Source: Fragilaria crotonensis (Eukaryota; Bacillariophyta; Fragilariophyceae; Fragilariales; Fragilariaceae). Taken from it: 64,000 nt of DNA. The translations under genes and the position numbers were made by a program. Positions 3,021 to 33,949 of the stretch are shown one piece after another; positions within the stretch are counted from its first letter, which is position 1; every line of letters starts with the position of its first letter. Where the stretch lies: NCBI GenBank assembly GCA_022925895.1, contig JAKSYS010000004.1:338768-402767 (forward strand), in the 5' to 3' direction. A model generated the notes under the pieces. The model did no database searches. It saw only the letters and a program-made list of their open reading frames with translations, and was not told the DNA's origin.

Positions 3021-3028
3021 GGCGCACT

Positions 3029-3090
3029 GGCCAGTGGCCAGTGGCCAGTGGCCAGTGGCCAGTGGCCAGTGGCCAGTGGCCAGTGGCCAG
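3029..3090. repeat. Heptamer minisatellite GGCCAGT x8
   Basis: Eight full copies and one partial copy of GGCCAGT start 8 bp after the GGCACCT array. The two units share a GGC core and the same 7-bp period, so one array may have evolved from the other by unit change and slippage. TGGCCA makes every unit locally self-complementary. Confidence 0.95.
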
Positions 3091-11225: not shown

Positions 11226-13112
11226 TCATTTAAAGTCACCGTCAAAACCTTGAAAGCCGGACATCATGAACGCATGATAGTATTTCTTCTTGGCAATCAA
11301 CGAGGTCCAATTCCATGACGATGTGAGCCGTCCATCAATGCAGCTACCACCATCATCGCCGGAACCATCAAAACCATGTTTGAAGTAATCGCAGAGTACC
11401 AATTTTCGGAGTCGATCAGGAGTACCAAAGTTGGTGGTAATGTAATTTTTGAAGACAACGTTGGATTCCCCCGCCTCGTCGGCTGTGACCGTGTCCAGAT
11501 CGTGCAGGAAGGAACAGATGGGATTGAGGAATCTTGGAATTTGAGTGTACTTGTCAATAAAGACCAGGGCGTTGGGGACGTCGCGATCTCCCAAATGGAT
11601 GACCGATAAGCCAACCCAAGGTGCTCCTGCTTCTGACTGCGTACTGGTCAGGAGCGAGCGCATGACCTTGGCGACTGAGGGACATGATTGGACGCGATGG
11701 AGTCCCTGTCCTGTATTGTATAGTTGGTAGGATGTGGATGTACTCAGCAGGTCTTCATCGGCACAAACCCACAACTTGTGCATGTGTCGTTGTACCTTTT
11801 GCCACAATCTGAGGGATTGCCAGCAAAAGGTGTATTGAGTGGAATGCGAATGCGACAGGGTCGGGCCGGTACTTCCGGATGTGCTAAAGGCAGAAAATCC
11901 GTAGCGAAGGTTGTTGTTGCTGGAGTATGGGGACATGCGCGATCCACCTGTGAGTTGGAGAGACAATTCCGACGATTCAGGAGCGTGAGGGTCAAAGTTG
12001 TCCTCCAGGTACTCCAACATGGTTTGAACTGGGCGAACGTTGGCATCCACGTAGGAAATGGCATCGCGGATACTCTCCAAAACACGTTCGACTTGATCGG
12101 GTGAAAGTTTCGAGTGAGGTGTCGAGTATTCTTGTACAAGTTCTTGTCTCATTGCTCTTTGACGCGAATGAATTTCATCAATTTCCTGTCGAGACAGCTT
12201 TGCCTTCGACCCATTCCCTCCATTCATGCGGCGACCATGGCTCACACCGACGACCCGTGTTGATTCAATCAATCGCGGATCCTTGAGCAATGCGTCACAA
12301 TCGTGATCCTGTAGGTATGGTGCCACGAGGAGTAAGTCCTTGTGCAATGAAAATCCAAGTGACTTTGCGACCGTTGGGGATTGGGCATCTTGCAAGAGGT
12401 ACATTAATTTTCCATAGGTTGTTCTCATGGAAGATGGATTCAAGACTTTGTTCCGACGACCAACTTCAAACATGGCTTGCAGAAGGACAGCATTTTCTTT
12501 GGGGTGTTTTGAGGCAGCGTTCCCCAGGACAATTGGTGGTTTGCCCGACCCCTTGCCACGAAGTAACTTGGCAACTGTACCATTTCGTTTTGGTTTTGAT
12601 TTTGCTTTCATTTTTCCATTTCTGCTAATCTGGTCCTTGCCACTGCCTTTTGCGTGACTGTGACTCGCGGTAGTAGAATCGGTCGGCGTTCCAGATGACG
12701 TTGCTATAGCCGTCCCAGGTGCCATGGATGTGATGAGAAAGTCACACAGTGCTGGTTCCTTCCCAGATGCGACAATCAAACCAGTGGCAATGTGTGCGGC
12801 TTCCAAGATACCATCCAAGATCCGTCGCACTTTGTTACCACGGCGTCCCGCCACGTCGACATGATCGGTATATTCACTAACATTCAAGCATTGTTCCATA
12901 ACTTGTAACAAGACGCGTTCTTCTGGAGAAAGACGTAGTGGTACGTACTGACAAAATGTAGCAAATTCCAAAACGTCAGCTTTGGAAGGTGTAGGCGTAG
13001 TTATGGACGCAGCTGTAGTTTCAGAGACAAGTATGTCGTCGCTGGCACTTTCATTGGCTTGCGTTTCATGTTCAGTCGATTCCATGGTCATGCCGCAAAA
13101 TGACTTTAACAT
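11226..13112 (-). CDS. DUF2009/UPF0652-like eukaryotic protein
   Basis: Intronless frame of 628 residues. The C-terminal block (591-628), with IDGRLTSSWNW, KKKYY and SGFQGFDGDF, matches my memory of the DUF2009 family (UPF0652 proteins of plants, fungi and protists), whose function is unknown. Other conserved-looking parts are FATFCQYVPLRLSPEER near residue 50, a MEVGRRNKxLNP-like block near 235-250 and TQIPRFLNPICSFLHDL near 535. Between them lie low-complexity linkers: a lysine/serine/glycine stretch around 145-190 that could serve as a nuclear signal, and a serine-rich one near 390-425. Methionines 8 and 10 are alternative starts. The gene is transcribed away from eIF3f, with 760 bp between the start codons. 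The family call rests on recall of the C-terminal motif. Confidence 0.7.
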   Translation of the reverse strand: MLKSFCGMTMESTEHETQANESASDDILVSETTAASITTPTPSKADVLEFATFCQYVPLRLSPEERVLLQVMEQCLNVSEYTDHVDVAGRRGNKVRRILDGILEAAHIATGLIVASGKEPALCDFLITSMAPGTAIATSSGTPTDSTTASHSHAKGSGKDQISRNGKMKAKSKPKRNGTVAKLLRGKGSGKPPIVLGNAASKHPKENAVLLQAMFEVGRRNKVLNPSSMRTTYGKLMYLLQDAQSPTVAKSLGFSLHKDLLLVAPYLQDHDCDALLKDPRLIESTRVVGVSHGRRMNGGNGSKAKLSRQEIDEIHSRQRAMRQELVQEYSTPHSKLSPDQVERVLESIRDAISYVDANVRPVQTMLEYLEDNFDPHAPESSELSLQLTGGSRMSPYSSNNNLRYGFSAFSTSGSTGPTLSHSHSTQYTFCWQSLRLWQKVQRHMHKLWVCADEDLLSTSTSYQLYNTGQGLHRVQSCPSVAKVMRSLLTSTQSEAGAPWVGLSVIHLGDRDVPNALVFIDKYTQIPRFLNPICSFLHDLDTVTADEAGESNVVFKNYITTNFGTPDRLRKLVLCDYFKHGFDGSGDDGGSCIDGRLTSSWNWTSLIAKKKYYHAFMMSGFQGFDGDFK

Positions 13113-13872
13113 ACGATTGGAACAGCAGATGTAGGAGAGAATGGTTGCGTAGTGAACGATGGATACTGTTGGATGATGTCAGATGCAAGATGAATGATGT
13201 GTGATGTATGTTGTATGATGAACGTTATTGGTTGTTGTGCCTCCTATCTCCTATCTGAATAAATGGGGAATAAAAGGGATTGGAATGGAACATGGAACCG
13301 TACCAGCAGAATTGGTGCAGGTGCGTATTTTAAAGTCGACCGTTGTACCACGTAGAAGACTGTACTGTCGTATGGTACCGATACACAGACATCTTTTCAC
13401 AAAGTCACATGCACGCCCACCGCCACCGACCAAGCGGACGACCAATTGCCGAGAACGGATGCATTTTTAGTTCGTGTCTGGTGCGCCAATTGCGGTTGGC
13501 GACAGACACGTCAGTTGTCGAAACGGCGGCCAGCGGGCTCCGGACACGCGCTCGTCGGATCGCTCTTGTCTTCCTCTCTTGCTACTGTCTACCTGGTACT
13601 GTTCGTCTTGCTAACAGTGCTGCAACCACAAAGAGTAAGATGGAAACCAAATGAATGACTTGAACTATAATCACAGCCAAACGAATGAAAAGCTTGGTTG
13701 TCCGGGCATGAATGTGGACAGCCTGCAAGACGTTCTGAAGCTTGGACCATCTACGACGTTGTAGTGCATCCCATGTCAATACACTCCAACTCTCCTTACC
13801 TCCAACCCTCCAGAGCCATTTCACGTATCGTCCATTGTACAACTCCGACTAGAGATTAGAATTGGTTTGACC
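13113..13872. promoter_or_regulatory. Bidirectional promoter region, DUF2009-like gene and eIF3f
   Basis: The 760 bp between two divergent start codons must contain both promoters unless one gene has a distant leader. A TGATG-rich low-complexity stretch lies at 13160-13225. I see no element I can name with confidence. Confidence 0.4.
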
Positions 13873-14979
13873 ATGGTATCGAGCATGACAAGTATTGCGA
13901 ATCCGACAAATGCGACAACAACTAGCAATAGTACAAGCAACCCGGCCCTTCTTCTCGACGGAGATGTTGCGGCAGCAACTGTCGTGACAGTTCATCCTCT
14001 CGTCTTGTTGAGTGTCTTGGATCATCACACTCGACGACAGGAACCAAATGGACGTGTCATTGGAACTTTGTTGGGACGACGAAATGGAAACATGGTACGT
14101 TTGTGTTGCTTTTGTATAAATATGGCGAGATCCCATACTACCTTGTTGAAGTTACTAATTCCCACACACACACTGCTACTACTACGTTAGGTTGAAATTA
14201 CCAATTGCTTCGCTGTTCCACACGCCGAACGCGGTTATGAAGTTGCCATTGGCAAGGATTTCAACAAGACCATGTTGCAATTGCATCGCAAGGCAAACCG
14301 AAAGGAGGTGGTTGTCGGTTGGTACGCCTCGGCCTGTGACAGCACAACCGGAACCACGGATGCCAATGGTTCGGAAGATGCTGGTGAAAAGTCACCAGCT
14401 GTTGTGACTCCACTCGTCTCGGATACGTCCTCTCTCATTCATGATTTCTATGCCACGGAAGCGGAAGATGGAGATCCAATTCATTTGGTCGTTGATACGA
14501 GACTGCTGGATGATTCGATTCAGATCCGGGGATACACGTCGAGTCCGGTTCTCATTCAGAATGAACCACTAGCCAATCTCTTTCATGAAATTAAAGTTGT
14601 TGTGCAATCGACCGAAGCAGAAGCCATTTGTCTCCATGAAATGCACAAACAACATGTCACCGCAGACGACAACACTACTAGTGACGACAAGAACCCCGTA
14701 TCACAGCTTCAAGCCAGCATGGGACAGTTGCTTCAATCGTTGGAAACTACCTCGTCGTATGTGGATGACGTTGTGGATGGCCGCCGTCCTGCCGATCCCA
14801 CGGTGGGACGGGCCATTTCCAATGTCATGGCACAAGTACCACGCATCCTACCCGCAAGTCGATTCGAAACTGTCTTTCATGAGAATTTACAAGATTTGCT
14901 CATGGTGACCTACTTGTCCAATTTGACCCGGACGCAATTGGATATTGCTGAAAAGTTACAGACGAGTTTGGGAATTTGA
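13873..14979 (+). CDS. EIF3F: Translation initiation factor eIF3 subunit F, two exons
   Basis: Non-catalytic MPN subunit of the eIF3 complex, which binds the 40S ribosomal subunit during initiation. Exons 13873-14094 and 14191-14979 flank a 96-nt phase-0 intron and encode 336 residues. The MPN domain begins at TVVTVHPLVLLSVLDHHTRR and continues with RVIGTLLGRR, then after the junction VEITNCFAVPHAERGYEVAI and VVVGWYAS. The catalytic zinc (JAMM) motif is absent, as in eIF3f of other eukaryotes. An insertion of about 20 residues rich in threonine and glycine follows GWYAS. The C-terminal helical part (TVGRAISNVMAQVP, then DLLMVTYLSNLTRTQL) matches the family closely. A decayed copy of its last exon lies at 21719-21885. 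Confidence 0.93.
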
Positions 14980-15474
14980 GATTTTGGCGGGGTCGTCAGC
15001 CGCGGACTGCGTAGTACAGTTTTCGGAGCATGTATGACAGCAAGAGTTCGTGGACTGTGAGATACGAGTTACGAACAAAACGCATCCGCGATTGTGGCGA
15101 TGAATCTGCTATGTTAGCAGACAAGAGGGTGCTAGATCCCAAGCAAAGTAGAATGACAATTTACTGATGGCGTAGAATGATGCTCAGGCAAGGTTTTGCA
15201 GTACTGCTATCCAACTGTGTTGTCAAGTATTACTATGAAACACAATTGTATACCCCGAAGTGCTATACATGCGTCGTCACTCTCGAGCCACCGATTGATA
15301 CTTGTAATTGTGGTACTGCACATTCAAACACAACCGGCTAGGGCGCCTGCCCGAAATGACGAGGAAGTGGGTTGTCTTGTTCATTTGGACGACTGGAACC
15401 AAGACGGAAACTGCGAAGACGCTGGATGTTAAAGTTTTGTACTCGTAATGAACTATGGTACCTTCGTTATCTCC
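14980..15474. other. Intergenic region within duplication copy A
   Basis: No gene seen. Much of it (15100-15480) is recognisable again at 22000-22380, for example the shared AGGGTGCTAGA and CAAGCAAAGTAGAATG blocks, which supports the duplication. Confidence 0.6.
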
Positions 15475-15805
15475 CTACCTGACGGCCAATAAGAAGTTTT
15501 GACCACCTCCTATCTCACTGGTCATGCCACCGTTGCCGCCATCGCTTCCCCCCTGGAACGTCAGTGGGCAAGTCACCATGAATTTGTGAATCGCACTTCC
15601 ATTCCCCTTGAGGATTGGACTTCCATAACTGGACGACACCTGCATCTCCACTAGTGGCAAGGACAGTCCCAGTGACATTCCATTGGCATTTCCAGGAGCC
15701 ATGTGATGGCAACACCTGGGTCGAGGTCAACTCCAACTTCTCATTTGATTCAATCCAAGCAAATGCTGGAAGTGTTTTGGTTTGAGTAGACAGAGTAGAC
15801 ATCAT
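15475..15805 (-). pseudogene. SEH1 remnant with internal deletion
   Basis: On the minus strand this matches two ends of the intact SEH1 at 22383-23522 and its leader. A short 5' piece (AFAWIES) is fused directly to the last WD40 blade (KLELTSTQVLPSHGSWKCQW through VVQLWKSNPQGEWKC). About 960 bp encoding nearly all the propeller are missing. A 3-bp TGA shared by both break points suggests a microhomology-mediated deletion. Beyond GDLPTDVPGG the frame shifts. A single blade cannot form a propeller, so this copy is dead. Confidence 0.88.
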
Positions 15806-16090
15806 GTACGCAATTCCAACCGTCGGACGGTAGACGTACTGCCATCCATGATACCAAGTTGCCTAAAACACAGTGGTGTCCGGGTTGCAGGTTGTGGGTC
15901 GCGGTTACGAACGTCCGATTTCTGCCAGGGAGTATGAGGACGAGTACGCAGTGTCCATTCCGGAAGACCACCTGCACAGTAGACAATTGCAGGGATCTGA
16001 CGGTCTCAAGCTTGAACAGCGTTGATGTGGCTAGTTTTCAATGTCCGTCCACAGCCCGCACCAACCCGTTGCTTACTTGTAGAGGCCATA

Positions 16091-19000
16091 TCAACGAACG
16101 TCGACGTCCCTCTTACAAGCATCAACAATCGAATGGATAAGAGGGCCAGGTTCAGGTGTGGCTTCTTGCCTTCCCAAAGCACGATCGCTTTGTTCGACTA
16201 ACCAATCGTGTCTCGCAATGGAACCACAGGTGTTCCAGAGCAGATCCAGAGCCTTTTGAAAATAAAAGGCAGCGTCATCGTAATTGCCAAGTCTGGCATG
16301 AAAGAATCCTGCCCTCTCGAGAGCGTATGCTTCCATGTGGGGAAGCCCGCAGAAGCGAGCTTGCCGATAGCGGCGTTGTAGGCGGCAGAAACAGCACCGT
16401 GCTTTGCTGATTTTCGGATCACCAGGTCCTCGGCATCCAAAAACGACAGATATGGCGGAGAATTCGGACAACCACGCGATACGGCGGTTGCAAGTCGCCT
16501 GCGATACCTTCTTGCCAGCTTGAGGTGCTTTCGTTTCCCATTTTGCTGGTAGCAACAATAGGATGCGATTCCGCCATAGAGGGAGTTTGAAGGTGTTCCG
16601 TAGCTGTAGAAGAAAGCCTTGCCCATCGACGTCAATTCGATCAGAACAGATTCAGCCAATGACCAGAATCCGAAACAGCATGCCAATATTGCCTTATAGT
16701 TCAAAGTCATCATCACGAGTATTCGATGGTTTGATGCCAGCGCTCGGCGAATATACGTTTCTTCATCCATAAATTCACCAGTGAGGATCGTCAACTCCTG
16801 CCAGCTCAGCGATCCATCGTTCCGTAAGTTCAGGACGAATTGTATGACTGGTTGCGTCCACATATCCATTGCCTCCTGAGAAGAATCACCGATTAACCGA
16901 GCATCTGCCCTCATTGAGGTTTCCAATTTCTCGATATTCGTGCCCAGAACGGCTTGTGTACCATACATCATGGCGAGGCAATAGGTCCCGTAAAGGACAT
17001 CACCGACTTCAAATCCAATGCTCGCCGCTCGTCGGAGAGTCTCTGGCATACCCCGGAGTGACTCGTACCAATGTATCAGTAACGTGAGTGACAAGACAGT
17101 CGTAGTACACTCCGCATCTCTGACCTGCATTTTGTCGAGAAGGGCGAGGGCAAGCTTGCCGAATCTGTATGCTCCACGGAAGTTGCCACTGGATAGCTGA
17201 GCAACACCATACATCGCTAACGCACATGCCGAGTACGCGTTGAGTCCGCCATTGAGTGTCGATTGTAACGCCAAAAGCGCTGAGTAGACACCGAGATTCG
17301 CCTCATCTTTTAGGAAGCAGTAATTGGACAAATTAACCAATATTCGTGATGTGGCTGTTGCAGCCTCGTCTTTCATTAAGGGCAAGCTCAAAATGTCGTC
17401 GTCAGACTTCCGACCTAGCATCCACTTGACCTTGAAAAGCTTCGAACCGATGAGCCGAAAGGATACCTTTCGTGGTACAATTATTCCCAGTGAACACAGT
17501 GCACGAATGGCAGCAGCTATTGACGACTCCACATCATTCTGTGCCATGACACATTCTACCCCGACAATCAACGCGTTGATCCTCATTCTGGTTGCCTTAG
17601 CACGATCTAGAACTTCGTTCGTCATCTCCGTGCATGCGTCATGATTGCCAACGATCAGCTCCATTCTTGCAAGAGTCTCAGTCATTTCAAAAGCCAGGTC
17701 ATAGAAATCAGTCCACTTTCGCGCATCATCCAAGAGCGAGAGCCCACGACGAAGTGCCGTGGCCGCATCAATAAATGCACTTTTTTCTTTGCAATACTTG
17801 GCTGCTTCAAGATGAAGACGAGCCAACTCCATACGATTTGTGTCGTCACGCACGAAATGAGGCGCATGAAAGAGGTGAACACATGCACGGTACCTGGATT
17901 CAGCACCACCAATCGCCAGTAAGACAGTTCCAATCGCCAAATGAATTCGTCCTTTCTCCTCCTCATCAATCAAGGACCGAAATTCAGTTTGGATAGTGTC
18001 ATGGCTGAATTGATATCCTTCTGTGATCTTCTCGACAAACCCTCCGCGTACAGCGTCCTGTATTGCCGTCGATATCGTGTGCTGTAATAGCGTTTCGCTA
18101 GAATGCCTTTTCTCGTCCGACTCGTCGTCGATATCTTGATCATCAAGCGACAACCTAACGCGCACCACAAGATCTTCAGTGAAGCGATATCCAAGCAGAG
18201 AGGCAATCTTGAGACTTTCTTGAACCGTAATTGGGAGCGACAGTACCTTCCTCGCCAGGATTTCTGCTAGAGTGATAGAGATCATGACTTCCTTTGAATC
18301 TGGTCCACGTCAAACTCCCACGATCCCGTGTTCGAATTCTGCACCAGCAATCCCTCCCACTGAAGAAATTCGATGAGCTTCATCACATGATACGGGTTTC
18401 CCATCGTTTTCTTGGCAATGATGCTGCTCAACTCTTTTGTCGAGGAGGTGGATGTTCCAATTATGCTGGAGATCAGCTCAAGAACACCCTCGCTGTCAAG
18501 ATTATCCAGTGATAGATCCAAAGCGTCCTCGTTACTCTTCATCTCATCGAAGATATCAGCAACACATGCAGACTCCTCGTCGCGGTAGGCCAGGATGATC
18601 ATGATGTTCGAAAGCTCATGGCCATGAAGCAGGACCTCAATCAGCTTCCTTGAGTCGTCGTCCATGCGATGTATGTCATCGATGAATAGCACTATCGGAT
18701 GCTTGTCGCAAGACACGGCTTGCAAAAAGGTTTTGATGGCTACCTTAAACTTGGCATATGCCGCGACATTCCTAACTGACATGTCAGAACCTCCACTGTC
18801 CTGTCCCGGTGCGTTGTCGAGGAGGGGAGATAGGTTGGAGATGCACTTCTCCAAAACGCGTCCATATTCAACTCCCAGCTGCTGCTGAAACTGAATTCGT
18901 CGTTCTTCAGTAAAGTCTGGCGATTGAATAAGGAGATCGCACAAATCCGAAAGTGCTGCCATGATGGCGGAGTTTGGTTCTTGGACTGACGAATTCTGAA

Positions 19001-19341
19001 AATACCTTCCCGACGCAAAGAAGCCGTTGCTTTCGAATACATGCTTTCGGAGGTGATCGACAAGCGATGTTTTTCCAGACCCAGCATCACCATGGACGAT
19101 AACTTTCGTCACCTTCTGGCGTTGATCATTGTTAGACAATCGGGAATATGCGTCCAGCAAAAAGTTTTGTCTCTCGACTCCGGCCGTACAGCACCACTTC
19201 ATCAATGGCTGTCGAGAACTCCAAAGCATCGTCATCCTCCTCGCTGCGAGGGTAATAGCTGTCCGTGACGGAGCTCAAATCCACACTAGCCGCAGTGCTT
19301 TTATCAAGCGGCACTTCTGAATATCCGTGACGAACTGGCAT
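16091..19341 (-). CDS. STAND-type ATPase with TPR-like C-terminal region, copy A (three frame breaks)
   Basis: About 1080 residues if read through. The N-terminal ATPase module (AAA_16-like) has Walker A GDAGSGKTS, preceded by VTKVIVH, and Walker B IVLFIDDIHRMD. A winged-helix-like part (QFSHDTIQ) follows, then ~600 residues of helical, TPR/MalT-like repeats ending in LGNYDDAAFYFQKALDLLW. Bacterial and diatom relatives couple this module to kinases or regulators; here it stands alone. The start at 19341 (MPVRHGYSE) aligns with that of copy B. Frame breaks lie at 19165-19168 (T run, +1), 18293-18295 (-1) and 16339-16342 (G run, -1). All three are one-base homopolymer changes relative to copy B, and protein conservation continues across them. 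Sequence error and recent inactivation are both possible. Confidence 0.7.
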
Positions 19342-21718
19342 GATGACAGATGATTTTGTGAACCCTTCTTTTACCAATCGGGAGGTTTTGGTTGTGTTCG
19401 AAGTTTGAAGTTTGAACTCGAACTTCATAGCAGGTACTATGTACGACTACTAGAGTACTAGTAGAAGGCTCACACGAGTATGCCATGTACAAGTACTAGG
19501 ACCAGCGAGTTGTGCTGATTCTCTTTAAACATAAAACTTGATGAAAGATGGTATCGAGTTCCGAAAATGAAACAACATGTGCTCCGGTACTTGTAGGACA
19601 ATCTGTCTTTAAAGGAGATGAATCTGAAATATTCCACTACGTATTCCAAGTACTTCTATGACACGTGTATTTCGCCCTCTAGTACTACATATCGAACGTT
19701 GTTATGTCAAACGTCCACATATTTCACATGGCATCTACGTGGTTTACTTAAGGAGAAGCAGTAATCTTCCAATCCAAAATCCACTTCATTTGACGGAGTT
19801 TCTCTGTTGTCTAAAGCGAGGTCTTTTACACCCAAGTTTCCAAGTACGATGTGCACATAAGCAGTCATTCAAGTTTTGATTTTCTTGAAAATGAACTTGT
19901 GTCTTGTGTCCATGCGAAAACTCTTTTGCCGCCGTTTCGAACTCCCATGAAATCCCGTCGAAGTTCAAAGTGGAAACGCGACATGACTCCTGTGTACATG
20001 TAGTGGTGTGGATTTCTTGTAGCAATTGAAGTGAAGATGTCCTCAATACGCTGAGGCATTGCTGGAGAAAGTTCTGCTACTTGTTCGTAGGAACAACAGT
20101 TGACAACAGTATGAAAATCAACATGACAATTGGATGTGGGGGGCAGCAGGCAGGATTAAAATCACTTGGATGGTTCCATAAATCAGCAACGGTTTCAAAT
20201 ACAGTCTTTGGTCTGTTATGAAGGACAAGCAGTACACCACCGGAGGAAGGGATGATGATGAAGAAGTGAGTCATCAGTTATTTTCTTGGTGTTCACAAGC
20301 AAGAACAACCACCAGCAAACAATCTGCCTTCTGCATCTTGCTTACCTAGTATAGCTATTAGTACGCCCATCTATCTCTTGTCACGTTTGAATGTTTGCTT
20401 GAGTACTAGTACACGTAAGAAACTGGCATTTCAACTGGTCCTCACCAGCTCTGCCCACTTCCACTGCCTGGATTCGATGCAGCAGCAGTTGCTTGCTGCA
20501 CTAGCTGGGCTCTTTCCATCATGTCACAAAGTCTCAATATCTCCTTTGTTAGGAAGTTAATCATATCTTGTTGAGGATTGCAAACTGAATTCACTTGGAG
20601 CCAGCACTCCATGGTTGACTTCTTACTCCAGTAGCGTGGATGTAGGGTAGTTAGTAGTTTGTCATATAGCTTTGCGCAATGATCAATTTTGATTCCAAAG
20701 TCCGTGTTCTTGGGACGATGCACCAGCAGTGACGTCGTTGGAAGTCTTGACCATGATTGCGTTAGTACTTCTAACAAGAACAGAGGTGCATCATTATGAT
20801 TGAGACATCAAAAACAATACCTTCTTATTGTTTCTGGAGTCCTATGGGAGAGGGGATGGATTGATGAGGGAAGTCTTGAGAGGTACAATATGGATCCCCT
20901 GACCAGGATTTTGATGGCAAGCTGTTGTCTCAATTTTGCAGAGGAAATGACAGCAGCCCTCCAACATGCTTGATGTTGGGAAGGAGCTGCTGGGTGTTTC
21001 AGTTGTCATTACCCCTAATACAGCTGGGGTTTCATGAAAGGTTGCTACAGATGAAAGCCTCTGAACTCAAAAAGGAGCTAGGACAGATTTAAAGAGTTAG
21101 TTCTTGAATGTACCAGCAGACATTTGTTGGACTGAGACCCCCATTCAAAAGCTATCGAGACAAGCAAGGGCGTACGTAAGCTGTGCATACTAGAATTATT
21201 CTCTTAACCAGAGCAACAGCAACACAGCCGATGACAGCACCCTAGTAATGCTTATGCTGCCACTGATTTAGCACCTTCACTGCAGGCTGTTCAAAACCCA
21301 CAGGGCTGCAATTGACTTTGATGCCTGCTTTGTGAATGCTTTTGTATCCAAGCTCGTGAGGGATGTCTTGTTAAGGAACACAAAAGAGGTGGTGTCAGAA
21401 GAATGAGACAAGGAGGGTGTGGATCGAGTTCAGTGAGGAGGATGGGGCATCAATCAAGTTTTTAGATTACTGAGTCTATGTGCCCCAATGATACGCACCA
21501 GTCACAGGACAAACCAGCCATACAAGATTTGCTCACTGGCAAAATTTACATACTGAGTTTGCTTACTGCAAAGAAAAATTGCTTACAACAGACCTTCCTG
21601 ATGTTACTGTTGTTGTTTGTTCTGCATTCTCTTGCGCAGTCCAATGGCCTTGCTCTCCAAACTTGTTACACTAATCCTATGGAATTGAGTACCAAAATGT
21701 TCCACCAGCAAGTAAACC
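19342..21718. other. Spacer between duplication copies, probable mobile-DNA remains
   Basis: The first 100 bp after the STAND start are GTAC-rich (five GTAC in 19430-19500). An open frame on the minus strand at 20442-20777 (111 residues, tryptophan-containing, with KEILRLCDMMERAQLV near its end) is not recognised. From about 20830 to 21700 only short broken frames are found, in the style of the decayed island further on. Confidence 0.4.
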
Positions 21719-21885
21719 ATGGGACAGGCCATTTCCAATGTCATGACAAAAGTACCAGGTACCAATATCCTTCTCACATGTCGATTCAAAACTGTCTTTC
21801 GCGAGAAGTTGCATGATTTGCTCATGGTTCCCAAGTTTTTGACCCGGAAGCAACTGGATATTGAGACACTTGTATGGGAACGTCA
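21719..21885 (+). pseudogene. eIF3f 3' remnant
   Basis: Matches the last ~55 codons of the intact eIF3f (13873-14979): GQAISNVMTKVP, then FKTVFREKLHDLLMV and RKQLDIE correspond to GRAISNVMAQVP, FETVFHENLQDLLMV and RTQLDIA. It has indels, has lost the YLSNL block and has no upstream MPN part. Similarity starts abruptly at 21719, which is a duplication boundary. Confidence 0.9.
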
Positions 21886-22382
21886 GACGCGCACCGTACT
21901 GCAGTGTTTGGATTATGCGTGAGAGTGAGCGCGCGTGGACTGTCAGGTATGATATTCATTACGAACAACATTTGTGGTTGTGTGGTAATGCTTTGTTGGG
22001 AAGGCAAGGGTGCTAGAGCCCAAGCAAAGTAGAATGTTAATTTACCGATGGAGTAGAATGATCTTCAGTAAAGTATTGATACTACTGCTATCGAACTGAA
22101 TTGTCAGTGGACTTAAGCACAATTGTATAGCCCTAAGTGCTACATGTCGCGACTCGCGACCCACCGTTTGATACTACGATATGGCACATTCGAACACAAC
22201 CGGTTAGGGCGCCCACCCGAGACAACGTGAAACTAGGGTGTCTTGTTCATTTGGACGACCGGAACCACTTGACAAGTGCTGGATTTGACACCACTCGCGA
22301 CTGTCGTAGCAAGATACTGGTAGTACTGAACTAACTATAGTTATCACTCCACCTGACTGCCTTCATGAGTCTTGACCACCTC
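21886..22382. other. Noncoding part of duplication copy B
   Basis: Diverged counterpart of 15000-15475. No gene seen. Confidence 0.55.
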
Positions 22383-23522
22383 CTATCCCTGCATGATTTC
22401 ATCACTACTAATACCACCGTTGCCACCATCGCCACCCCCTGGAATGTCAGAGGGCAAGTCACCATGAATTTGTGAAACGCACTTCCATTCCCCTTGAGGA
22501 TTGGACTTCCATAACTGGACCACACCTGCATCTCCACTAGTGGCAAGGACAGTCCCAGTGACATTCCATTGGCATTTCCAGGAGCCCTGTGACGGCAACA
22601 CCTGGGTGGAGGTCAACTCCAACTCCTCATCATCCAGGCGATTGAGTTGATACACCCGAAGAGGCCCACCCTGCTCCGTCGCGGCGATCCAATGAAAGCG
22701 ACGTCCCACATTGGGAGCCCATGCCACATCCAACACAGGACCAGCATGTTTGGGAAACTGCAACGACATTTGCGTCCACTGTCTCGATGCCGCAATGTAC
22801 CTCCAAATCGCCAAATGCGTGCTCCCACCCACCACCAAGGTGGGAGGTTCGAAACGTCCCGTGCACCAACTCAACGACGATATCCCCCCACTTCCCGAAA
22901 ACGCTTGGAAGCTCCCCTGCAGGGGCCACTGACTAAGATTCTGCAAATCCACAGCCTCATAGATCCGACAAATACCATCGGCACTGGCTGTGGCCAATTG
23001 CAGTCCGAAATGGCGAGGTGCGAATTCGACTCGAGTCACGTGCGTCCTCGCGTCCGTGAGATTCGTTCGGACCAGCCAGTGCGTCCCCTGTTCTTCCCAC
23101 ACCTTGACTTCACAATCGCTGCTACCGCAGGTCGCAACTAACGTTCCGAATTCGGCATGCGACCAACTCAAATGTGTGACTGCTCCACGATGGGCCTGGA
23201 AGTGAGATGCCACGGCCCATGTATTACTGGTATTGTTGTTATTGTTGTTGGTTGTGGTTCCGTCGTGTGCATGATCGCCATTGCTGGTAGTGGTAGTACT
23301 GCCACATGGTTGTAAATTCCAAATACGTACGTGACGATCACCACTGCAGGTGGCCATACGGCGACCGTAAATATCGAAACTGACGTGATGAATGTAATCG
23401 GAATGGAGGGACGAAAGAATCTGAGTCGAGGACTCGGTTCTCACTAGAACTTTGTTGTTGTCCGTCATGATAACATCGTTCTTGACACTGCCGTTACTAT
23501 CGGATGAGATCATTGAAGACAT
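22383..23522 (-). CDS. SEH1: Nucleoporin SEH1, WD40 propeller
   Basis: WD40 protein shared by the Nup107/Y complex of the nuclear pore and by the SEA/GATOR complex at the vacuole or lysosome. The intronless frame gives 379 residues from the ATG at 23522. Recognisable blades include IHHVSFDIYGRRMATCSGDR, HLSWSHAEFGTLVATCG, VTRVEFAPRHFGLQLATAS with DGICRIYEA and NLSQWPLQG, DVAWAPNVGR, and WNVTGTVLATSGDAGVVQLW. This follows SEH1 closely. An asparagine/threonine-rich insertion separates the first two blades. The frame is open 99 codons further upstream, but that part is low-complexity, GTAC-rich and unlike SEH1, so I start at 23522; 23468 is another candidate. The copy in duplication A is a remnant, so this is the functional gene. 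Confidence 0.92.
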   Translation of the reverse strand: MSSMISSDSNGSVKNDVIMTDNNKVLVRTESSTQILSSLHSDYIHHVSFDIYGRRMATCSGDRHVRIWNLQPCGSTTTTSNGDHAHDGTTTNNNNNNTSNTWAVASHFQAHRGAVTHLSWSHAEFGTLVATCGSSDCEVKVWEEQGTHWLVRTNLTDARTHVTRVEFAPRHFGLQLATASADGICRIYEAVDLQNLSQWPLQGSFQAFSGSGGISSLSWCTGRFEPPTLVVGGSTHLAIWRYIAASRQWTQMSLQFPKHAGPVLDVAWAPNVGRRFHWIAATEQGGPLRVYQLNRLDDEELELTSTQVLPSQGSWKCQWNVTGTVLATSGDAGVVQLWKSNPQGEWKCVSQIHGDLPSDIPGGGDGGNGGISSDEIMQG

Positions 23523-24153
23523 GATTAGACGTTGTATTCTTGATGATAACTTGATCAATACGCACACACTCGACTCCGGATGTGCTTGTTCAAATGATTC
23601 CATCCATGCAAATGCTGGATCGGGTTCTGTTTGACAGTAGGCACAGTACGTGTATGGGCTTTTAGGTTGCACTGCAACCAGTGTAACTCCAGTAGAGAAT
23701 TTACTGAATGTACTAAAGGTAGAGTACCCGATACTTGTGCCGTAATCCGTGATACTGGTACAACGGTACAAGTACTCTAACTTCAAAACCTGCAGTACTG
23801 GAGTAGCTATACCAAACACTATGCAATCAGCACACTAATGGTTGTACTCCTACTGCTACTACCTGGTAGCTGGTACCAATTCATTTGCATGAAACAGAGT
23901 GCTGAGTGGTGCCCGGGTGGCGGGTGGCGGGTGGCGGGTCGCGGTTCCTTACTACATCGTACCGGTTCCTGCCCGGGAGTGTGCGGAGAAGTATGCTGTA
24001 CCCATTCCGGAAGACCACCTGCACCGTAGACAATGATGTATCCCACATCGAAGGGATCTGAGGGTCTCAAGCCTGAACAACGTTGATGTGGCTCGCCTTC
24101 AATGTCCGTCCACAACCCACACCAACGGTCGCTTGCTTGCAGAGGCCATATCA
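23523..24153. other. SEH1 upstream region with G-rich heptamers
   Basis: Probable SEH1 promoter and leader, followed by the STAND B 3' flank. It contains three GTGGCGG heptamers at about 23915-23940, diverged in copy A (15886-15910), plus many GTAC words. The G-runs could form a quadruplex; this is inference. Confidence 0.5.
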
Positions 24154-27100
24154 TCAAACGTCGACGTCCCCCTTACAAGTTTCAACGATGGAATGGATTA
24201 GAGGGCCAGGTTTCGGCTTGGCTTCTATACTTCCCAGAGCACGTTCGCTTTGTTCGACCAACCAATCATGTCTCGCAATAGAACCACAGGTGTGCCAGAG
24301 CAGATCCAGCGCCTTTTGAAAATAAAAGGCAGCGTCATCGTAATTGCCAAGTCTGGCTTGAAAGAATCCTGCCCTCTCGAGGGCGTACGCTTCCGTGTGG
24401 GGGAAGCCCATCGCATTGAGCTTACCAATGGCAGTGTTATAGGCGGCAGAAACAGCACCGTGTTTTGCTGATTTTCGGACCGCCAAGTCCTCGGCATCCA
24501 AAAGTAACAGATAGGGCGGAGAATTCGGACAACCACGTGAAACGATGCTTGCAAGTCTCCTGCGAAACATTCGTGCCAGCTTGAGGTGCTTCCGTTTCCC
24601 ATTTTGTTGGTAGCAAGAATAAGATGCGATTCCACCAAAGAGGAAACTTGACGGTGTTCCGTAGCTGTAGAAGAAGGTCTTTCCCATCGACATCAACTCC
24701 ATCAAAATAGATTCAGCCATTAAGCAGAATCCGAAACAACATGCCAATATGGCCTTATAGTTCAAAGTCATCATCACGAGTATCCGATGGTTCGATGCCA
24801 GCGCTCGGCGAATATACGTTTCTTCATCCATAAATTCACCGGTAAGAATCGTCAACTCCTGCCAGCTCAGCGATCCATCATTCCGTAAGTTCAGGACGTA
24901 TTGAATGACTGGCTGCGTCCACATATCCATTGCCTCCTGAGAAGAATCACCTAATGACCGAGCATCTGCCCTCATGGTAGCTTCTAATTGCTCGAGATTC
25001 GTCCCCAGCACGGCTTGTGTGCCATACACCATCGCGAGGCAATAGCTCCCGAAAAGGACATCACCGACTTCAAACCCAATGCTTGCGGCTCGTCGTAGAA
25101 TCTCTGTCATACCCCGGAGTGACTCGTAGCGATGTATCAACAACGTAAGCGATAAGACAGTCGTGGCACATTCTGCATCTCTGACCTGCATTTTGTCCTG
25201 AAGGGCGAGGGCAAGCTTGCCGAATCTATATGCACCACGGAAGTTGCCACTGGAAAGCTGAGCAACACCGTAAATCGCTAACGCGCATGCCGAGTATGCG
25301 TTGAGTCCGCCATTGAGTGTCGATTGTAACGCCAAAAGAGCTGCGTAAACACCGAGATTCGCTTCATCCTTGAGGAAGCAGTAAGTGCACAAATTAACCA
25401 ATATCCGTGATGTGGCTGTCGCAACCTCGTCTTTCATTAAGGGCAAGCTCAAAATGTCGTCATCCGACTTCCGACCTAGCATCAACTTTACCTTGAAAAG
25501 TTTCGAACCGATGAGTCGAAAGGATGCCTTTCGTGGTACAATCATTCCCAAAGAAAACAGTGCACGATTGGCTGCAGCGATTGACGCCTCCATATCATTC
25601 TGCGACATGACGCATTCGACACCGATTAGCAGCGCATTGATCCTCATGCTGGTTGTCTTGGCGCGATGTAGAACTTCGTTCGTCATCTGCGTGCATGCGT
25701 CATGATTGCCAACGATAAGCTCCATCCTTGCAAGAGTCTCAGTCATTTCAAATGCCAAATCATAGAAATCAGTCCACTTTCGCGCATCAGCATCCAACAA
25801 AGATAGCCCACGGCGAAGTGCCGTGGCCGCATCAATAAATGCACTTTTTTCTTTGCAATACTTGGCTGCTTCAAGATGAAGGCGAGCCAACTCAATACGA
25901 TTCGCGTCGTGACGCACGAAATGAGGCGCATGAAAGAGGTGAACACATGCGCGATACCTGGATTCAACATCTCCGATAGCTAGCAACACGCTGCCAATCG
26001 CCGTATGAATTCGTCCTTCTCCTCCTCATTCATCAAGGATTGAAATGCAGTTTGGATAGTGTCGTGGCTGAATTGATACCCTTCTTTTGTCTTCTCGACA
26101 AACCCTCCGCGTACAGCGTCTTCTATTGCCGTCGCCACCGTCTGCAATGAAAACGTTTCACTAGAATGTAGTCTCTCGTCCGACTCGTCCTCGAATACCT
26201 GATCATCCAGGGACGACCTTACACGTACCACAAGATCCTCAGTGAAGCGATATCCAAGCAGAGAGGCGATCTTGAGACTTTCTTGAACCCGATTTGGGAG
26301 CGACTGGCCAGGATTTCTGCTAGAGTGATGGAGATCATGACTTCCTTTTGAATCTGGTCCACGTCAAACTCCCATGATCCCGTGTTCGAATTCTGCACCA
26401 GCAATCCCTCCCACTGAAGAAATTCGAGAAGCTTCATCACATGATACGGATTTCCCATCGTTTTCTTGGCAATGATGCTGCTCAACTCGTTTGTCGAATT
26501 GGATGATGATCCAATAATGCTGGAGATCAGCTCAAGAACACCCTCTGTCAAGATTATCCAGTGATAGATCCAAGGCGTCTCCGTTACTCTTCATCTGATC
26601 GAAGATATCAGCAACACTTGCAGACTCTTCGTCGCGGTAGGCCAGAATGATCATGATATTCGAAAGCTCTTGGTCATGAAGCAGAACCTCAATCAACTTT
26701 CTTGAGTCTTCGTCCATCCATTGAACGTCATCGATAAAGAGCACTATCGGATGCTCGTCGCAAGACACCGCTTGCAAAAAGGTTTTGATGGCTACCTTAA
26801 ACTTGGAATACGCTGCGACGTTTCTAACAGACACATCAGCGCCTCCGCCGTCCTCTCCACGTGCGTGATCAAGGAGGGGAGATAGATTGGAGATGCACTT
26901 CTCCAAAACACGTCCATTTTCAACTCCCAACTTTTGCTGAAACTGCATTCGTCTTTCTTCAGTAAAGTCTGGCGATTGAATGAGGAGATCGCACAAATCC
27001 GAAAGAGCTGCCATGATGGCGGAGTTTGGTTCTTGAACTGACGAATCTTGAAAATATTTTCCTGACGCAAAGAAGCCGTTGCTGTCAAATACCGGCTTTC

Positions 27101-27392
27101 GGAGGCGATCGACAAGCGATGTTTTTCCAGACCCAGTATCGCCATGGACGATAACTTTCGTCACTCTCTGGAGGTGATCATTGCTAGAAAATCGGGAATA
27201 CGCGTCCAGCAAAAGGTTTGACTCCCGATTCCGGCCGTACAGCACGACTTCATGAAGGACTGGCGAGACTTCCAACGCATCTTCACCCTCCTCGCTGCGA
27301 GGATTAAAGCTATCCGTGACAGAGCTCAAATCAACACTAGCCGCCGTGCTTTTTTCAAGCGGCACCTCTATAACACCACGACGAAGTGCCAT
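24154..27392 (-). pseudogene. STAND-type ATPase with TPR-like region, copy B (decaying paralogue)
   Basis: Paralogue of 16091-19341 with the same domain order: Walker A GDTGSGKTS, Walker B VLFIDDVQWMD, helical repeats, and the conserved end LLWHTCGSIARHDWLVEQS. The frame is continuous over the region where copy A is broken near 19165, but it breaks elsewhere: a 2-bp deletion near 26545, a 10-bp deletion near 26303-26310 (removing the LSLPIT part) and a 1-bp loss near 26017. The first two are not homopolymer changes, so real inactivation is likelier here than in copy A. Many differences between the copies are at third codon positions, which suggests that both were selected for some time after duplication. 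Confidence 0.75.
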
Positions 27393-28573
27393 GATGATTG
27401 ATTTGCGAAATCTAGGTTTAAGAAGCGGGAGGGTTTACCGCTTATTGTTGCGTTCGAACTTCGTGGAGTATTTGATGTATGCATACATTGTATTGGAATT
27501 CTTGTTTTTGCGAAGTACATTACATCTTGTACGAACATACATGTATTTCTTGTGTAATTTCATAACGTCGTTGGTCTTGGAACTTGGAACGTTGATTCTG
27601 GCACACGAGCGGCTTAAATGAACCGAATAAATGTTGAAACCGGAGTATTCCTTTTGCTTTTAGACATCGAAATCCATCTAAACAACACATTCTTCGCCAG
27701 GTAATGGACGATTGACTGTTAGCGCGAAGGTGCCCCTGTTCGTATGACAACTGACAACAGATATCCGTCGTAGACGTTGCATAGAGTAGAGAGTACTACC
27801 GGTAGAACATAGTAGATTGTGTTTTTATGATGCCACGATGCTTTAGCTGACACGAATGACCACTTCTCGAAGAATAAATGCGTATTTGTCATCATGTTCA
27901 CCAACACTATTTCCAAAAGGTCGATATATAGTAGAAGTAGCTATAATATGTATATATACGTATGACATCAATGACTCAGACATTTGAATGTCTTCTTCTA
28001 AAATATACGACAGTGGGAAAAACTATTACTGGAAAAACACCTTTTTTCGGATCAAGGAAGTTGTTTATTCTTTTAATGTATAAAAACAGTAAAAATAGGG
28101 TGATTTTTTGCATGAAAACACCTTTCTGTTTCTACGTGTACTGTACATTCTTACCGTACACTACAGTACGGCAAAATTCTATCACTGTAGTTGAGTTAGG
28201 GTACCAGGTAGCTAGTAGGCGCAGCTGCAGTTTTCAATATACCAGGTTGCAGACCTCATGTGTTGATAGCATTTTAAAGCAACCTGCACCTGCACAAGAC
28301 ATGACGACTTCCATCTTAAAGCCAAACATGGTGATCACTTCAAACTTGTTGCTTCCAAGTTGCTCTCCCAGCCACTTAAGCATAAAATCTTTTCAGAAAG
28401 CTGAATAGTACTCATTCTTCTTGCAAATAATCTGTGCTTGGCTTTGCAAGCATATGTGCAGCATAAGCAATCCAAGGACAGAATTCTTTCAATTTCTTAT
28501 TGACTTTCAAGCACTAGAGAATGTCAACAGATTCCACCAGAATCATGCAAGGAATGCTGCACTGGACATCATC
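27393..28573. other. Intergenic, start of gene-poor island
   Basis: The first ~200 bp may hold the STAND B promoter. Beyond about 27440 the similarity to copy A ends. No supported gene; only short frames. Confidence 0.45.
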
Positions 28574-28598
28574 TAACCTCCTAACCCCTAACTCTAAC
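28574..28598. repeat. Telomere-like CCCTAA variants
   Basis: Four degenerate CTAAC-type units (including one CTAACCCCTAA), close to the common eukaryotic telomere repeat TTAGGG read on the other strand. Confidence 0.6.
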
Positions 28599-28742
28599 AA
28601 TGTAGGTTTCGTAAAAACATCTTTCTGGAATTTTGGCCGGGAAGTGGCTTTAATCAAAAAACACTGAACAATTTTGCATAAAAACACCTCCTTGCCAGCC
28701 CTGGGAAAACCAACACCACTAGGATTTGTGGTGACCTCTAAG

Positions 28743-28761
28743 CCCTAACCCCTAACCCCTT
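28743..28761. repeat. Telomere-like CCCTAA repeat
   Basis: Three near-perfect CCCTAAC units, 145 bp from the similar tract at 28574. They are interstitial, in the middle of the window, and flank a short unique sequence. Confidence 0.65.
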
Positions 28762-31034
28762 GGCTTGCTGCTCTCCTGGATGCTACTACATGTCGTGAAT
28801 GGACTTAAGTCACAAGGAAGGCCAAGACTGGAAGGCCAAGACAAGAAGACCAGGATTACCTCCCAGCATGCAGGGATCTACACAGAGATCTCAAGAGGCA
28901 TCACATGTGAAAGAAATGGAGACCTTGCAGGATTAGAACCTACTGGGAAGGTATTTGAGGTAAGGTCTTTGGGATTAGTTTGTTGTGTGTAACCTACTCC
29001 TTTTTATGCTCTCGCTCATCAGTGATTGAATAATGACTTTACAAGTAGTTGAACAACCAAATTAAGCACATAACACAAGAATCTAGAAAGTGAGTTGAGG
29101 TCATCTACTGTCACATTTCAGCCAGGGCAGACAAGCATTTTTGAGGCTAGTGTAAAGAAAGTACAGAGCCGTGATTTAACAAAGATCCACATTCCACACC
29201 TTAAAACTTCACTTATCATCTATCCGTCAGCATCACAGTCTAGTATAGTGTGAATAGAATCATTAGAAGATTTAGGGTGGTACAGATAAGTATGTGTGAC
29301 ACTAAGTCATCACAATGTAAGACACTTTTTCAGCATATGGATCATCTGTCCGAATCTTTCTTCCCTCAAATTAACATTTCATTTTGGTTAACGTTTTAAA
29401 ACATCATTTCCTGCGTAAGGAACAGGGTAGTTTCTGGGCATACAACCAAAATTGACCATTTGTAATGTTAATTGCCACTTTCCACAAAATCAAGTAATAT
29501 CTGTAGCCGAATTGCACGAACGATCGCATTTTGTTTCATGAAGAATTTGTTATTGTGCAATTTCAAGCTCCAGAAGCATTCAATTGCTGCCTTTTAGTCT
29601 GATTTGTTGTACTCATCTGTTGTGGCAAACAATGCAAGGGAAGCAACAGTATCATGTCGCTCATGACTCCTAAAAAGCTTCCCCTCGTGCATGTTCTCCT
29701 CATGTTGATGATTCCATCAACAAGATCAGTTGATACTACCATGAATCTTACCCCGTACATGTGATTATATTTCTTTCTTCGTTGGAGGTACCGGTGTTGC
29801 GTGAACGCTTTCCTTATTCATTCAAGTCTGCGTCCGAAACCCCTTGGATCATCATCCAGAGTGTGATGGTGATTATCCAAATGCTTGTTTTGATCATGAT
29901 GACAATCCCATTGCATGTTTTGACGATGATGATTTGATTGAGCTCACCACTCCTGTTGACAACAATCTCTCAGTTACATTATCTTTGACCTAGATCAACC
30001 CTCTATCTTCCCCTTCAGCAGAGCAACTTAATCACAAATGGAATCTATCAAAGTATCCTCTCATAGAACTGTTCAGGTTGACCCACTCACCATGATGCTA
30101 AAGAAATCATTGGCTCCAATCACAGCATACTATTCACAGCAGATTATAAAATGGGTAGTTCACTTTCATTTTTTGCGATGGCTCCTGAACCGCACATTAG
30201 ATCCTGCTCCGACAAATGATGCTTATACTAGCCCCTGGTACCTTTGGAAACGGCTATTCTATTATTGCCGAAGATATCAGTCAAGTACTTCGATGTCAAA
30301 GCTATTTTCCAATCCTTTCTGACATGCCCCAAGTTGAATGTAGATGAAACCTTTTTCAAATCCTGTGTGATCCCTACTTTGGTGATTATTCTCCAAGCCA
30401 TCTTCTCATATCCTCAGAGATATCAAAAAGGGCAAACAAGCCAATCAAAGAGCACATGATAAACTCATAAAAAACCAATGGGATACTTCTCCCATGCATG
30501 CCTGCAATAGACAAACAAGACAGCATGCAACATAAGTGGCCGGGTAGCCTGCAGGTTGAACCAATCACAACTTCCTATGTTCTTTTGAGACATCCAATTG
30601 TGATACATGTTCTTCAAGTGCGGTATCAACGCAGAAAGTTCTTCCCACAATTGTCCAGGTCCCCCATCAAACAGGGATGTCAGCAATGCAGCACAGCATC
30701 TCAGTAATCAGCAGGATCATCTCCAGCCAGATTGACATAATCCTTTGTGGTGAATTCAAATATGTACTAGTATAAAGACAGGAAATTGGTCTTGCAGTGG
30801 ATTTGCCTGGGAGCTCGGGAATAATCCCCAATTTCATCTCATTCCCTTCATTGTTGGTGACATCAAAAGTCATGATCAGTTATGCGGTCACTACAGATGT
30901 TCACTCAAGAGTCAAGCAGCTTTGCCAATACTCTAAGTGCCCAGCCATGTTGTCCTTGTGTTCGAAGTTATGAGCATACGCTATTTGCCAGGCACCCCCT
31001 ATGCAATGTAGTCTCTTGAACTTTGCAACAATAT
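28762..31034. other. Decayed sequence, no recognised gene
   Basis: Only short, broken frames on both strands. The stretch 29850-30500 reads as fragments in alternating frames (for example DHDDNPIACFDDDDLIEL), suggesting an old mobile-element gene, but I cannot assign a family. Confidence 0.4.
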
Positions 31035-31180
31035 CTCAAGAATTCATTTGACAATGTCGTATTCGGTCTTAATGATAAGTGAGGCAGATTTGGGGCATGT
31101 CCTGCAGAGATCCTTCACCTTGTCCTGATTGGGTGGCTCCAAACTGTTTTGGCCTCTTCTTTTGACAGGCTTGGTGTACC
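31035..31180 (+). pseudogene. Possible transposase fragment with GACPAEILH block
   Basis: The frame containing FGACPAEILHLVLIGWLQ (from 31089) has a stop just upstream. A P-x-E/D-x-LH-x3-G block of this type occurs in several large transposase families such as the CACTA/Plavaka group. The evidence is one short motif, so the family is uncertain. Confidence 0.3.
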
Positions 31181-33949
31181 AGTCATGGTGCGTGTAAAGG
31201 AATACAATGCAGTTGCTTTGCATTCAGATCAGTCAGCATATCAAACGCAATACTAGCAATCTCGTGACTGCCCCTGACATTTTTTACAACGGGTTTACCC
31301 ACAATTACAATCCTTCATGGGAATGCGTATCGTAGTGATCTTACAGCGATGCAGCTCCTTTCTGTCCCACAACTTGCTTCTGCAAAATGAAGGAGCTAGA
31401 AGAGTTTGGTGACGTTAACTTTGTTGAGGATTGGCAGCAACATGTGTCTTTTCTTTTGGATTCGTAATCTTTGTAAAGCCAAAGAAATGCGATTTATTGC
31501 TTTCAAGGTTAACCAGTAACCAAAAGCCAATCCTCCACCTTTTCAATGTAAAAGGGGCTTTGCATGCCTCAATTACTTCATGAAAGGGATGTGGCTGGTG
31601 AAGACAGATCATACATACTAGTGCAACTTGTAGATCCCGGCTTGGTGGTTTTCATCGTGATGTATCTTCGGAAGGTTTTTGGCTGGTACATAGGAGGAGG
31701 ACTTCATTGCTGTTCAACATCCTTAGGCTTTTATCGCTCAACGGATGAAAGCAAGGCTGATACCAAAAGCAGGTGACGGCAATTCCAGAGATGAAGGCAA
31801 GGCTGTAGCTGGTGACACTTATTGATGCAGCTTACAGCATGACTATATTTCATCCACAGTCATGCTGATGACCAAACAGTAGATGTAATTTTCAATAGTA
31901 TCATGCTACCCAAGCTTTGAAACAGCCAACATCAGCACCTCCTCCTGTCCATTTTGATTGCCCACCACGTCCACGTCCATCATACAACTCGTGGCCTCCA
32001 AGGGAGCTTGCTTTCCTTTCAACCCCACCACGGCTTTCCAGGAAGCCCAGATTGAGTCTTCCAGTCCCATCTCCATCGTGATGATACTTCTGTCTGTTTT
32101 GATGGCCATCGTGACGTCCTCAACTTTGATTCAATGAAGATTACCAGCCAGCAGGTAATGATAACCAAATATTTGATCTAGATACCCTTCCTGTTGCTGG
32201 AAGTGCAAAATCATGTTGCTTCCATGTTGCCTTTGCAGAGTTCTTTTTGAATTCCATGTGACTTGCTGAAAGTGGCAGCATGGCGTTTCTTTCCCTACAT
32301 GTCCATTGATGCACTGTCAATATTGGCATGTTTCATATGTTGAACAAAATTGCCTTGCAAAGGCTTCTCTCAAAGACTCACTTTGGCGTGCAGAAGACAG
32401 CATTCCAATTGATATCAATCAATGATCAACATGATTGGTGCCTCAATGGTGCCACCTAGTTGTTGCAAATAAATGCAACATCACCTTTTATCTTGCGTAG
32501 CATCCAGAAAGCACACAATTGGGAAGGAATACTAATGCAGTCAGCTAATGCTAACTACTATAAAGCAACGATATTCACAACCATAATCCAAACCTGACCT
32601 CAAAATATGGACAAGATAGGTAACAAAATGCCACAGCCTGCCTCAATGAGATGCTACAGGTGTAGACCACTCGGAACATGCACGTGCTGCCTCCTGCTGG
32701 AAAACAACAAATGTCTGATAAAAGCCCCTCCAACATGATGAAAAGTCCTCTTCGTAAATCCGGTTTTGGAATGAATGATACCACATCTGCCGGCTTGGAC
32801 AATCCCGCGATTTGCGGTATACCAGGTACAAATCCATTCCTTCTCGTCCTCTTGCTTTGCATCAAAGCATGGAAGTCATTCATTGTTTACCGACAAGAAT
32901 GAGCAAACTCACCTCCACTCCAAAACTATTTGTACTAAGCAGAGGTCAGCCATGCAACTTGTGTCAATCATCCCTGGGGACACCCAATTTCAAGTTATGA
33001 TTCAGAGAGTTCTTCCTTTCACAATGCCACTATTCCCAGCAGAGGTAATCACGAATACACCTTTGTCTGCATGGAAAGCAACAGATGGGGCAGTGACATG
33101 CCCTGGTGATTCCCACAGCTGCATCAGCAGGGACTACTGCCAACAGGCAAGCATCATTTTCAGTTGCTGCAGAAGGCAAAGCTATCACTTGTTCATCCTC
33201 CTCTTGCAATGCCCGCGAAACCAAATGCTCCTTTGTGATGTTGCATCTGGTGAGCCACACCAGCAACAGTTAGTATCATCTCAAAGGCAATTTTGGTCAC
33301 AGCGGTGATGGCGTTTTGCAGCGGAGGCAGGAAGCAATGATAATGTGTATTGCCTCATCTTCCCTGACCAGCTGAAGTAACACCCATTGGAAAACATTTG
33401 ACCATACTGACCCATCCCTGAACTTCCCCTGCCCTTCCAACCATAATGCACTTTGCGATTTCGTAAGGGAGTGCTTTCAAGAAGGGAAGCGCATTCCCTC
33501 CCAACGATCGAAGGTGACAATCTGTTCTACAGCATTAAGAACACAACAATGGAAACGCCACCTTCCACACCGAGTAAACAGCTAATTGTATTATTACAAC
33601 TGCTTCATGTGGACGTTGTGACCTGGGATGATTGGCAGCTCCCTTCTTATCAAGGAGGCCAATTGATCTCATGATTCTTCTGGTTGGTAGAAGGTTTTAG
33701 AGTGCTTGACAAGCAACTGTGAAACTGTTTGTTTGTAAGCTTTCTGGCAATGCAAACTTGAGCTGCCTGCTGCAGGAGGAGGCAATGGGTCCTTGATGGT
33801 TGGTGAACCAAAATCTTCTGAAGACTTTGAGTCATCAATCTTCATTTTGCCCGTCATCACCATGAAACATACATGAAGAGTCAAAACGCCAAAGTTCCTC
33901 GAGAATACAAAGGCTGTCTCGAATATGTTCAGGTATGAGTTTTATTATG
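31181..33949. other. Decayed sequence, no recognised gene
   Basis: No frame longer than ~180 codons and no motif recognised. The base composition and TGATG/TTGATG-rich style match the neighbouring transposon remains. Confidence 0.4.

Follow-up and report, generated by a model that had tools for sequence, protein, structure and literature searches.

Here we describe a tandemly repeated block of DNA in Fragilaria crotonensis. It lies in a window of 64,000 nucleotides (assembly GCA_022925895.1, contig JAKSYS010000004.1, positions 338,768 to 402,767 of the forward strand) that forms the end of its 403 kb contig. Both copies of the block, A and B, contain in the same order and orientation the end of the eIF3f gene (+), SEH1 (−) and an AAA_16/STAND-like ATPase gene (−), and corresponding positions are 6.9–8.1 kb apart on the single contig. 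The features are given below in window positions; L006 is a related ATPase locus on another contig.

13873..14979, plus strand: intact eIF3f gene with two exons (limits inferred from the frames), recognized by Pfam and PDB sequence search
14803-19420: copy A, with its left edge inside eIF3f; similarity fades near 19420
14803..15744, no strand: left part of copy A, with the eIF3f tail, intergenic DNA and the SEH1 3′ remnant
15549..15744, minus strand: SEH1 3′ remnant of copy A, about 65 codons, ending at the deletion junction
15741..15744, no strand: deletion junction of copy A, TCA common to both edges
16070..19400, minus strand: AAA_16/STAND ATPase of copy A; relative to L006, three single-base indels break its frame
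19400..21719, no strand: spacer between the copies, parts of which match other contigs
about 21720-27440: copy B, the homologous block to the right of copy A
21720..22630, no strand: left part of copy B, homologous to 14803-15744
21720..21863, plus strand: 3′ fragment of a truncated eIF3f where copy B begins, about 48 codons, with a probable duplication breakpoint in the gene
22383..23525, minus strand: SEH1 of copy B, an open frame of 380 amino acids from the methionine of MSSMISS (start presumed)
24130..27440, minus strand: AAA_16/STAND ATPase of copy B; relative to L006, deletions of 2, 10 and 1 bases break its frame

When the window was compared with itself by BLASTN, the copies aligned in two collinear blocks. 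The left parts (14804-15744 and 21720-22630) matched with 73.7% identity over 982 columns (E 8e-167), the right parts (15881-19389 and 23921-27436) with 87.2% over 3535 columns (E 0). Searches of the whole genome assembly covered 62.1 Mb in 881 contigs. With the copy A ATPase as query they returned 11 matches, nine of them long ATPase matches, including the window's own two copies. In a tree of the nine ATPase rows, in which four of the six inner branches were well supported, ATPases A and B were sisters with a support of 100/100. At six other ATPase loci (L003–L008, with 1.5 kb flanks), the SEH1/eIF3f part of the window had no match at E 1e-5; L004 matched the window once elsewhere, at 44460-44764, unrelated to the block. 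The block of eIF3f tail, SEH1 and ATPase hence seems specific to A and B. Since the two ATPases are sisters and the other ATPase loci lack SEH1/eIF3f matches, the three elements were most simply copied together, locally and once. The tandem segmental duplication proposed in a preliminary description of this DNA is thus borne out in order and orientation, both by the collinear blocks that its suggested comparison of the copies revealed and by the sister relation.

In both ATPase copies AAA_16 scored above the Pfam cut-off. NB-ARC exceeded its cut-off by 1.9 bits in copy A only, nSTAND_NTPase5 stayed below it in both copies, and the long C-terminal pieces of both proteins matched no Pfam family. 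The name STAND ATPase given earlier is thus a reasonable label, yet unproven. Between the copies we found a dS of 0.327 and a dN of 0.071 over 1074 codons. Because their ratio of 0.22 resembles that of the rest of the family (0.16–0.30 in 28 pairs of eight rows), both ATPases were probably under constraint for most of their history. Short base runs hold all three indels of copy A and one of the three in copy B, and one copy A site recurs in L004, so that sequencing error or recurrent slippage is possible for the base-run frameshifts. The 2- and 10-base deletions of copy B are harder to attribute to either. Elsewhere in the family, long open frames were present at L006 (1090 codons), L007 (1153) and L008 (1112), and the frames of L003, L004 and L005 were broken.

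The identity of SEH1 was confirmed by a PDB sequence search, in which 14 of the 54 matches listed bear the name SEH1, among them the best one (E 1.7e-61); the others were mostly WD40 proteins such as SEC13. Genome-wide, SEH1 was found in three places, namely the full gene in copy B, the fragment in copy A and, on contig C164, a protein with 31% identity. Copy A has lost about 960 bp, equivalent to roughly 22631-23593 of copy B, with a 3 bp microhomology (TCA) at the junction. After 15744 it resumes at sequence equivalent to about 23590 of copy B. The deleted bases include the presumed SEH1 start codon (23525), and SEH1 was likely duplicated whole. At the 3′ end of the remnant, indels shift it out of the SEH1 frame. 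An open frame of 115 codons spans the junction (15515-15862, translated), and we think that it is a chance open frame. The reduction of SEH1 in copy A, together with an intact gene in copy B, agrees with what had been described.

The preliminary account did not contain the feature that the SEH1 remnant is nearly undiverged. Only 8 of its 196 sites (4%) differ from copy B, whereas the intergenic DNA next to it differs at 152 of 539 (28%; Fisher p 1.1e-14). Synonymous sites follow the same pattern, with three changes on 42.8 sites (pS 0.07, dS 0.074, dN 0.034), whereas pS between the ATPases ranged from 0.153 to 0.419 across 18 full 60-codon windows (a last piece of four codons with value 0 was left out of this range). 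Divergence thus drops sharply in a single stretch, at synonymous sites too, as expected of a conversion tract. We find that gene conversion between the SEH1 copies, before or during the deletion, fits this pattern best. One might instead suppose that SEH1-A was kept by selection without any conversion and lost recently, its low synonymous divergence being due to chance or codon bias. SEH1 is a conserved gene, after all, the 42.8 synonymous sites are few, and it uses its codons slightly more unevenly than the ATPases do, with an effective number of codons of 56.1 against 57.3 and 59.0 (49.3 for the last 82 SEH1 codons, a short sample). This difference, however, is so slight that slow synonymous change through codon bias is a poor explanation, and three differences on 42.8 sites have a binomial p of 0.0013 at the ATPase rate of 0.265. 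Moreover, dN in the remnant reaches roughly half the value of dS, which leaves little room for constraint since then. We therefore regard selection without conversion as unlikely.

Conversion and deletion in SEH1-A might even have been one event, in which one side of a break was filled with about 200 bp copied from SEH1-B and the other end was joined by microhomology. The low-divergence tract does end at the deletion junction, as a single repair event predicts; the same end point is expected if an independent deletion came after the conversion, and we put the one-event version forward only tentatively. If it were true, a duplicate would have been killed in a repair for which its own twin served as the template.

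The eIF3f gene was confirmed in copy A by the Pfam domains JAB and MitMem_reg and by PDB matches, with eIF3 subunit F accounting for the top five of nine listed (best E 8e-39). Copy A begins on its left with the last 58 codons and the stop of this gene, from 14803 onward. The homologous sequence of copy B sets in abruptly at 21720, the counterpart of 14803 inside eIF3f. A remnant of eIF3f is hence present in copy B, and its 48 or so codons come close to the 55 claimed earlier, but its abrupt start looks like a breakpoint. Across 19380-22400, tblastn detected neither eIF3f exon 1, nor the first 204 codons of exon 2, nor DUF2009, the neighbour of eIF3f; over three stretches searched, other eIF3f/DUF2009 matches had E values of 0.09 or worse. 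In the genome, exon 2 was found in two places by protein search, the full gene and the copy B fragment. A full eIF3f at copy B, which the preliminary description had named as evidence to look for against its own reading, was thus found neither by tblastn of this stretch nor by the genome search. The left neighbour, window 7000-14800, matched only itself in a DNA search across the genome. Given this sharp end of homology within eIF3f and the failure to find any remnant upstream, copy B probably never held a full eIF3f, as far as the present sequence allows us to judge.

The eIF3f tails gave a dS of 0.186 and a dN of 0.157 between A and B, and the resulting dN/dS of about 0.8 points to a fragment that evolved with no trace of constraint, in a small sample of 43 codons. 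An in-frame TAA lies directly left of the fragment. We considered a functional use of the fragment and rejected it on account of this stop and the lack of constraint. In an excerpted account, the review by Katju describes partial duplicates as shorter copies without homology past a putative breakpoint in the reading frame (PMC3449122). The eIF3f fragment resembles these in that its homology ends at a breakpoint inside the frame; unlike the partial duplicates in that excerpt, it is a promoterless 3′ end and was probably dead on arrival.

This bears on the reading originally given to the locus, reciprocal gene loss, in which eIF3f and SEH1 were both fully duplicated and eIF3f was then lost from B and SEH1 from A. 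Each gene does survive in one intact copy, the two on opposite sides, and the loss of SEH1 from A is clear. A second full eIF3f, however, probably never existed. Against it speak the sharp edge inside eIF3f and, within 19380-22400, the absence of exon 1 and of the first 204 exon 2 codons; upstream eIF3f sequence was likewise missing from the rest of the genome (protein search for exon 2, DNA search for 7000-14800), and the dN/dS of the tail over its 43 codons reveals no period of constraint. Loss of eIF3f in copy B, as one half of a reciprocal pair, is therefore not upheld, and a left end of the duplication inside eIF3f accounts for the same observations; we consider reciprocal loss distinctly improbable.

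We find it very hard to believe that copies A and B came about because the assembly strung together two divergent haplotypes of a single locus, an artefact also raised in the preliminary description: the assembly does seem to contain haplotigs, as contig C336 parallels C548 with 92.8–99.4% identity in the stretches compared, but 28% intergenic divergence and an ATPase dS of 0.33 between A and B are well above the most diverged haplotig-like pair (dS 0.137), and a misjoined allele should bring a full eIF3f and its left neighbour, not a truncated gene. Genome-wide, the left neighbour (window 7000-14800) turned up on no other contig, and hence no alternative haplotype of the locus was found. C336 and C548 are probably haplotigs, a segmental duplicate being a less favoured alternative. 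L031 and L008 were 99.2% identical, L032 and L033 99.4% over the first 3.2 kb followed by no match, and L005 and L006 92.8%. Such patchily divergent haplotig-like contigs recall the locally diploid genome of Fragilariopsis cylindrus, as far as the excerpted report describes it (PMC5634323); copies A and B differ from that case in lying on one contig and in a divergence that exceeds that of the haplotig-like pairs in our comparison.

The haplotig-like pair L005 (C548:293323-299544) and L006 (C336:34286-40516) merits mention in its own right. It is only 92.8% identical, with 99.2–99.4% in other stretches of both contigs. Its ATPase is open in L006 and frameshifted in L005, and ATPase loss may be segregating.

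Taken together, we consider the following history probable as a whole. A single tandem duplication would have copied a unit reaching from inside eIF3f (14803) through SEH1 and the STAND-like ATPase. Its left breakpoint would have cut eIF3f, leaving as second copy a promoterless 3′ end that decayed without visible constraint. SEH1 would have been copied whole, and gene conversion between its copies, before or at the loss, may have reset at least the 3′ end. A microhomology-type deletion would then have removed about 960 bp from copy A, among them the presumed start of SEH1. The ATPase copies would have remained mostly constrained, with frameshifts arising later. The repeat itself, the homology edges, the deletion, the divergence differences between the parts and the sister relation of the ATPases are observed; we infer the order of events, as well as the conversion and the breakpoint origin of the eIF3f fragment.

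Several observations weigh against this history. The low SEH1 divergence is confined to a single stretch of 196 bases, and divergence is uneven along the block, with two intergenic blocks only 16–19% diverged (13/83 and 19/101) and synonymous change in the eIF3f tail, five on 30.3 sites, also lower than in the ATPase; all of these are still far from the 8/196 of the SEH1 remnant. A full eIF3f in copy B that was later deleted is conceivable. Furthermore, under a tandem model one expects the spacer to the right of A to resemble the sequence to the right of B, barring divergence or replacement. We detected no homology between 19380-21730 and 27420-35600 (BLASTN with word size 7, best E 0.2), and local alignment of 19390-20020 with 27437-28100 scored 29, shuffled sequences having a mean of 29.2 and a maximum of 47. 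Since 20025-21586 and shorter stretches within 19477-19947 match other contigs, replacement or divergence of the spacer is a plausible account of the missing resemblance. The spacer is largely repeat-like; 21560-21725, at the breakpoint of B, matched only itself as one query.

Further features lie outside the block. At 35562-39486 a unit of about 1313 bp occurs three times in head-to-tail arrangement, its copies being 97–98% identical. Near-identical single, double and triple copies occur on several other contigs, pointing to the tandem amplification of a family of repeats or mobile elements. An inverted repeat of about 440 bp (40521-40960 and 44004-44443, 97.7% identical) possibly marks mobile element ends, and a DDE_Tnp_4 transposase-like open frame was detected by Pfam at 61481-62275, near the contig end. 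At 8835-8964 (−), U4 spliceosomal RNA scored above the Rfam cut-off, the sole Rfam family in the window. Two adjacent perfect 7-bp tandem arrays, with units GGCACCT and TGGCCAG, occupy 2972-3091. A bZIP-PAS protein is suggested at 53598-55958, where both matches are weak and bZIP is below the Pfam cut-off; a protein of this type would point to a stramenopile such as a diatom.

The preliminary description further proposed that divergent resolution of the two genes can cause hybrid incompatibility. For this, lineages would have to retain the functional copy of one and the same gene at positions that come apart in meiosis. With a spacing of 6.9–8.1 kb on one contig, separation of the A and B copies at meiosis is unlikely. 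Hybrids inheriting neither SEH1 would be very rare because the SEH1 positions are only about 7–8 kb apart, and eIF3f was probably never doubled, so the proposal finds no support at this locus. It also takes the essentiality of both genes as an assumption; SEH1 is dispensable in budding yeast. In the excerpted report on Mimulus pTAC14, each lineage's copy occupies a distinct location (PMC5896889). The present case is like it, as far as that excerpt goes, in that a duplicated gene retains one working copy, and unlike it in that a single genome holds the copies, about 7–8 kb apart. None of the titles and abstract openings listed in our literature searches dealt with this locus.

The tandem duplication at this locus is real and old; its decay is of an ordinary kind, and the conversion signature is small but neat. 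The course of such decay can be read here side by side, with one gene cut at a probable breakpoint, one deleted after probable conversion and one member of a gene family accumulating frameshifts. A pattern of one intact copy for each gene need not be reciprocal gene loss, and this calls for caution. Such decay is ordinary genome evolution and would not alone create a species barrier.
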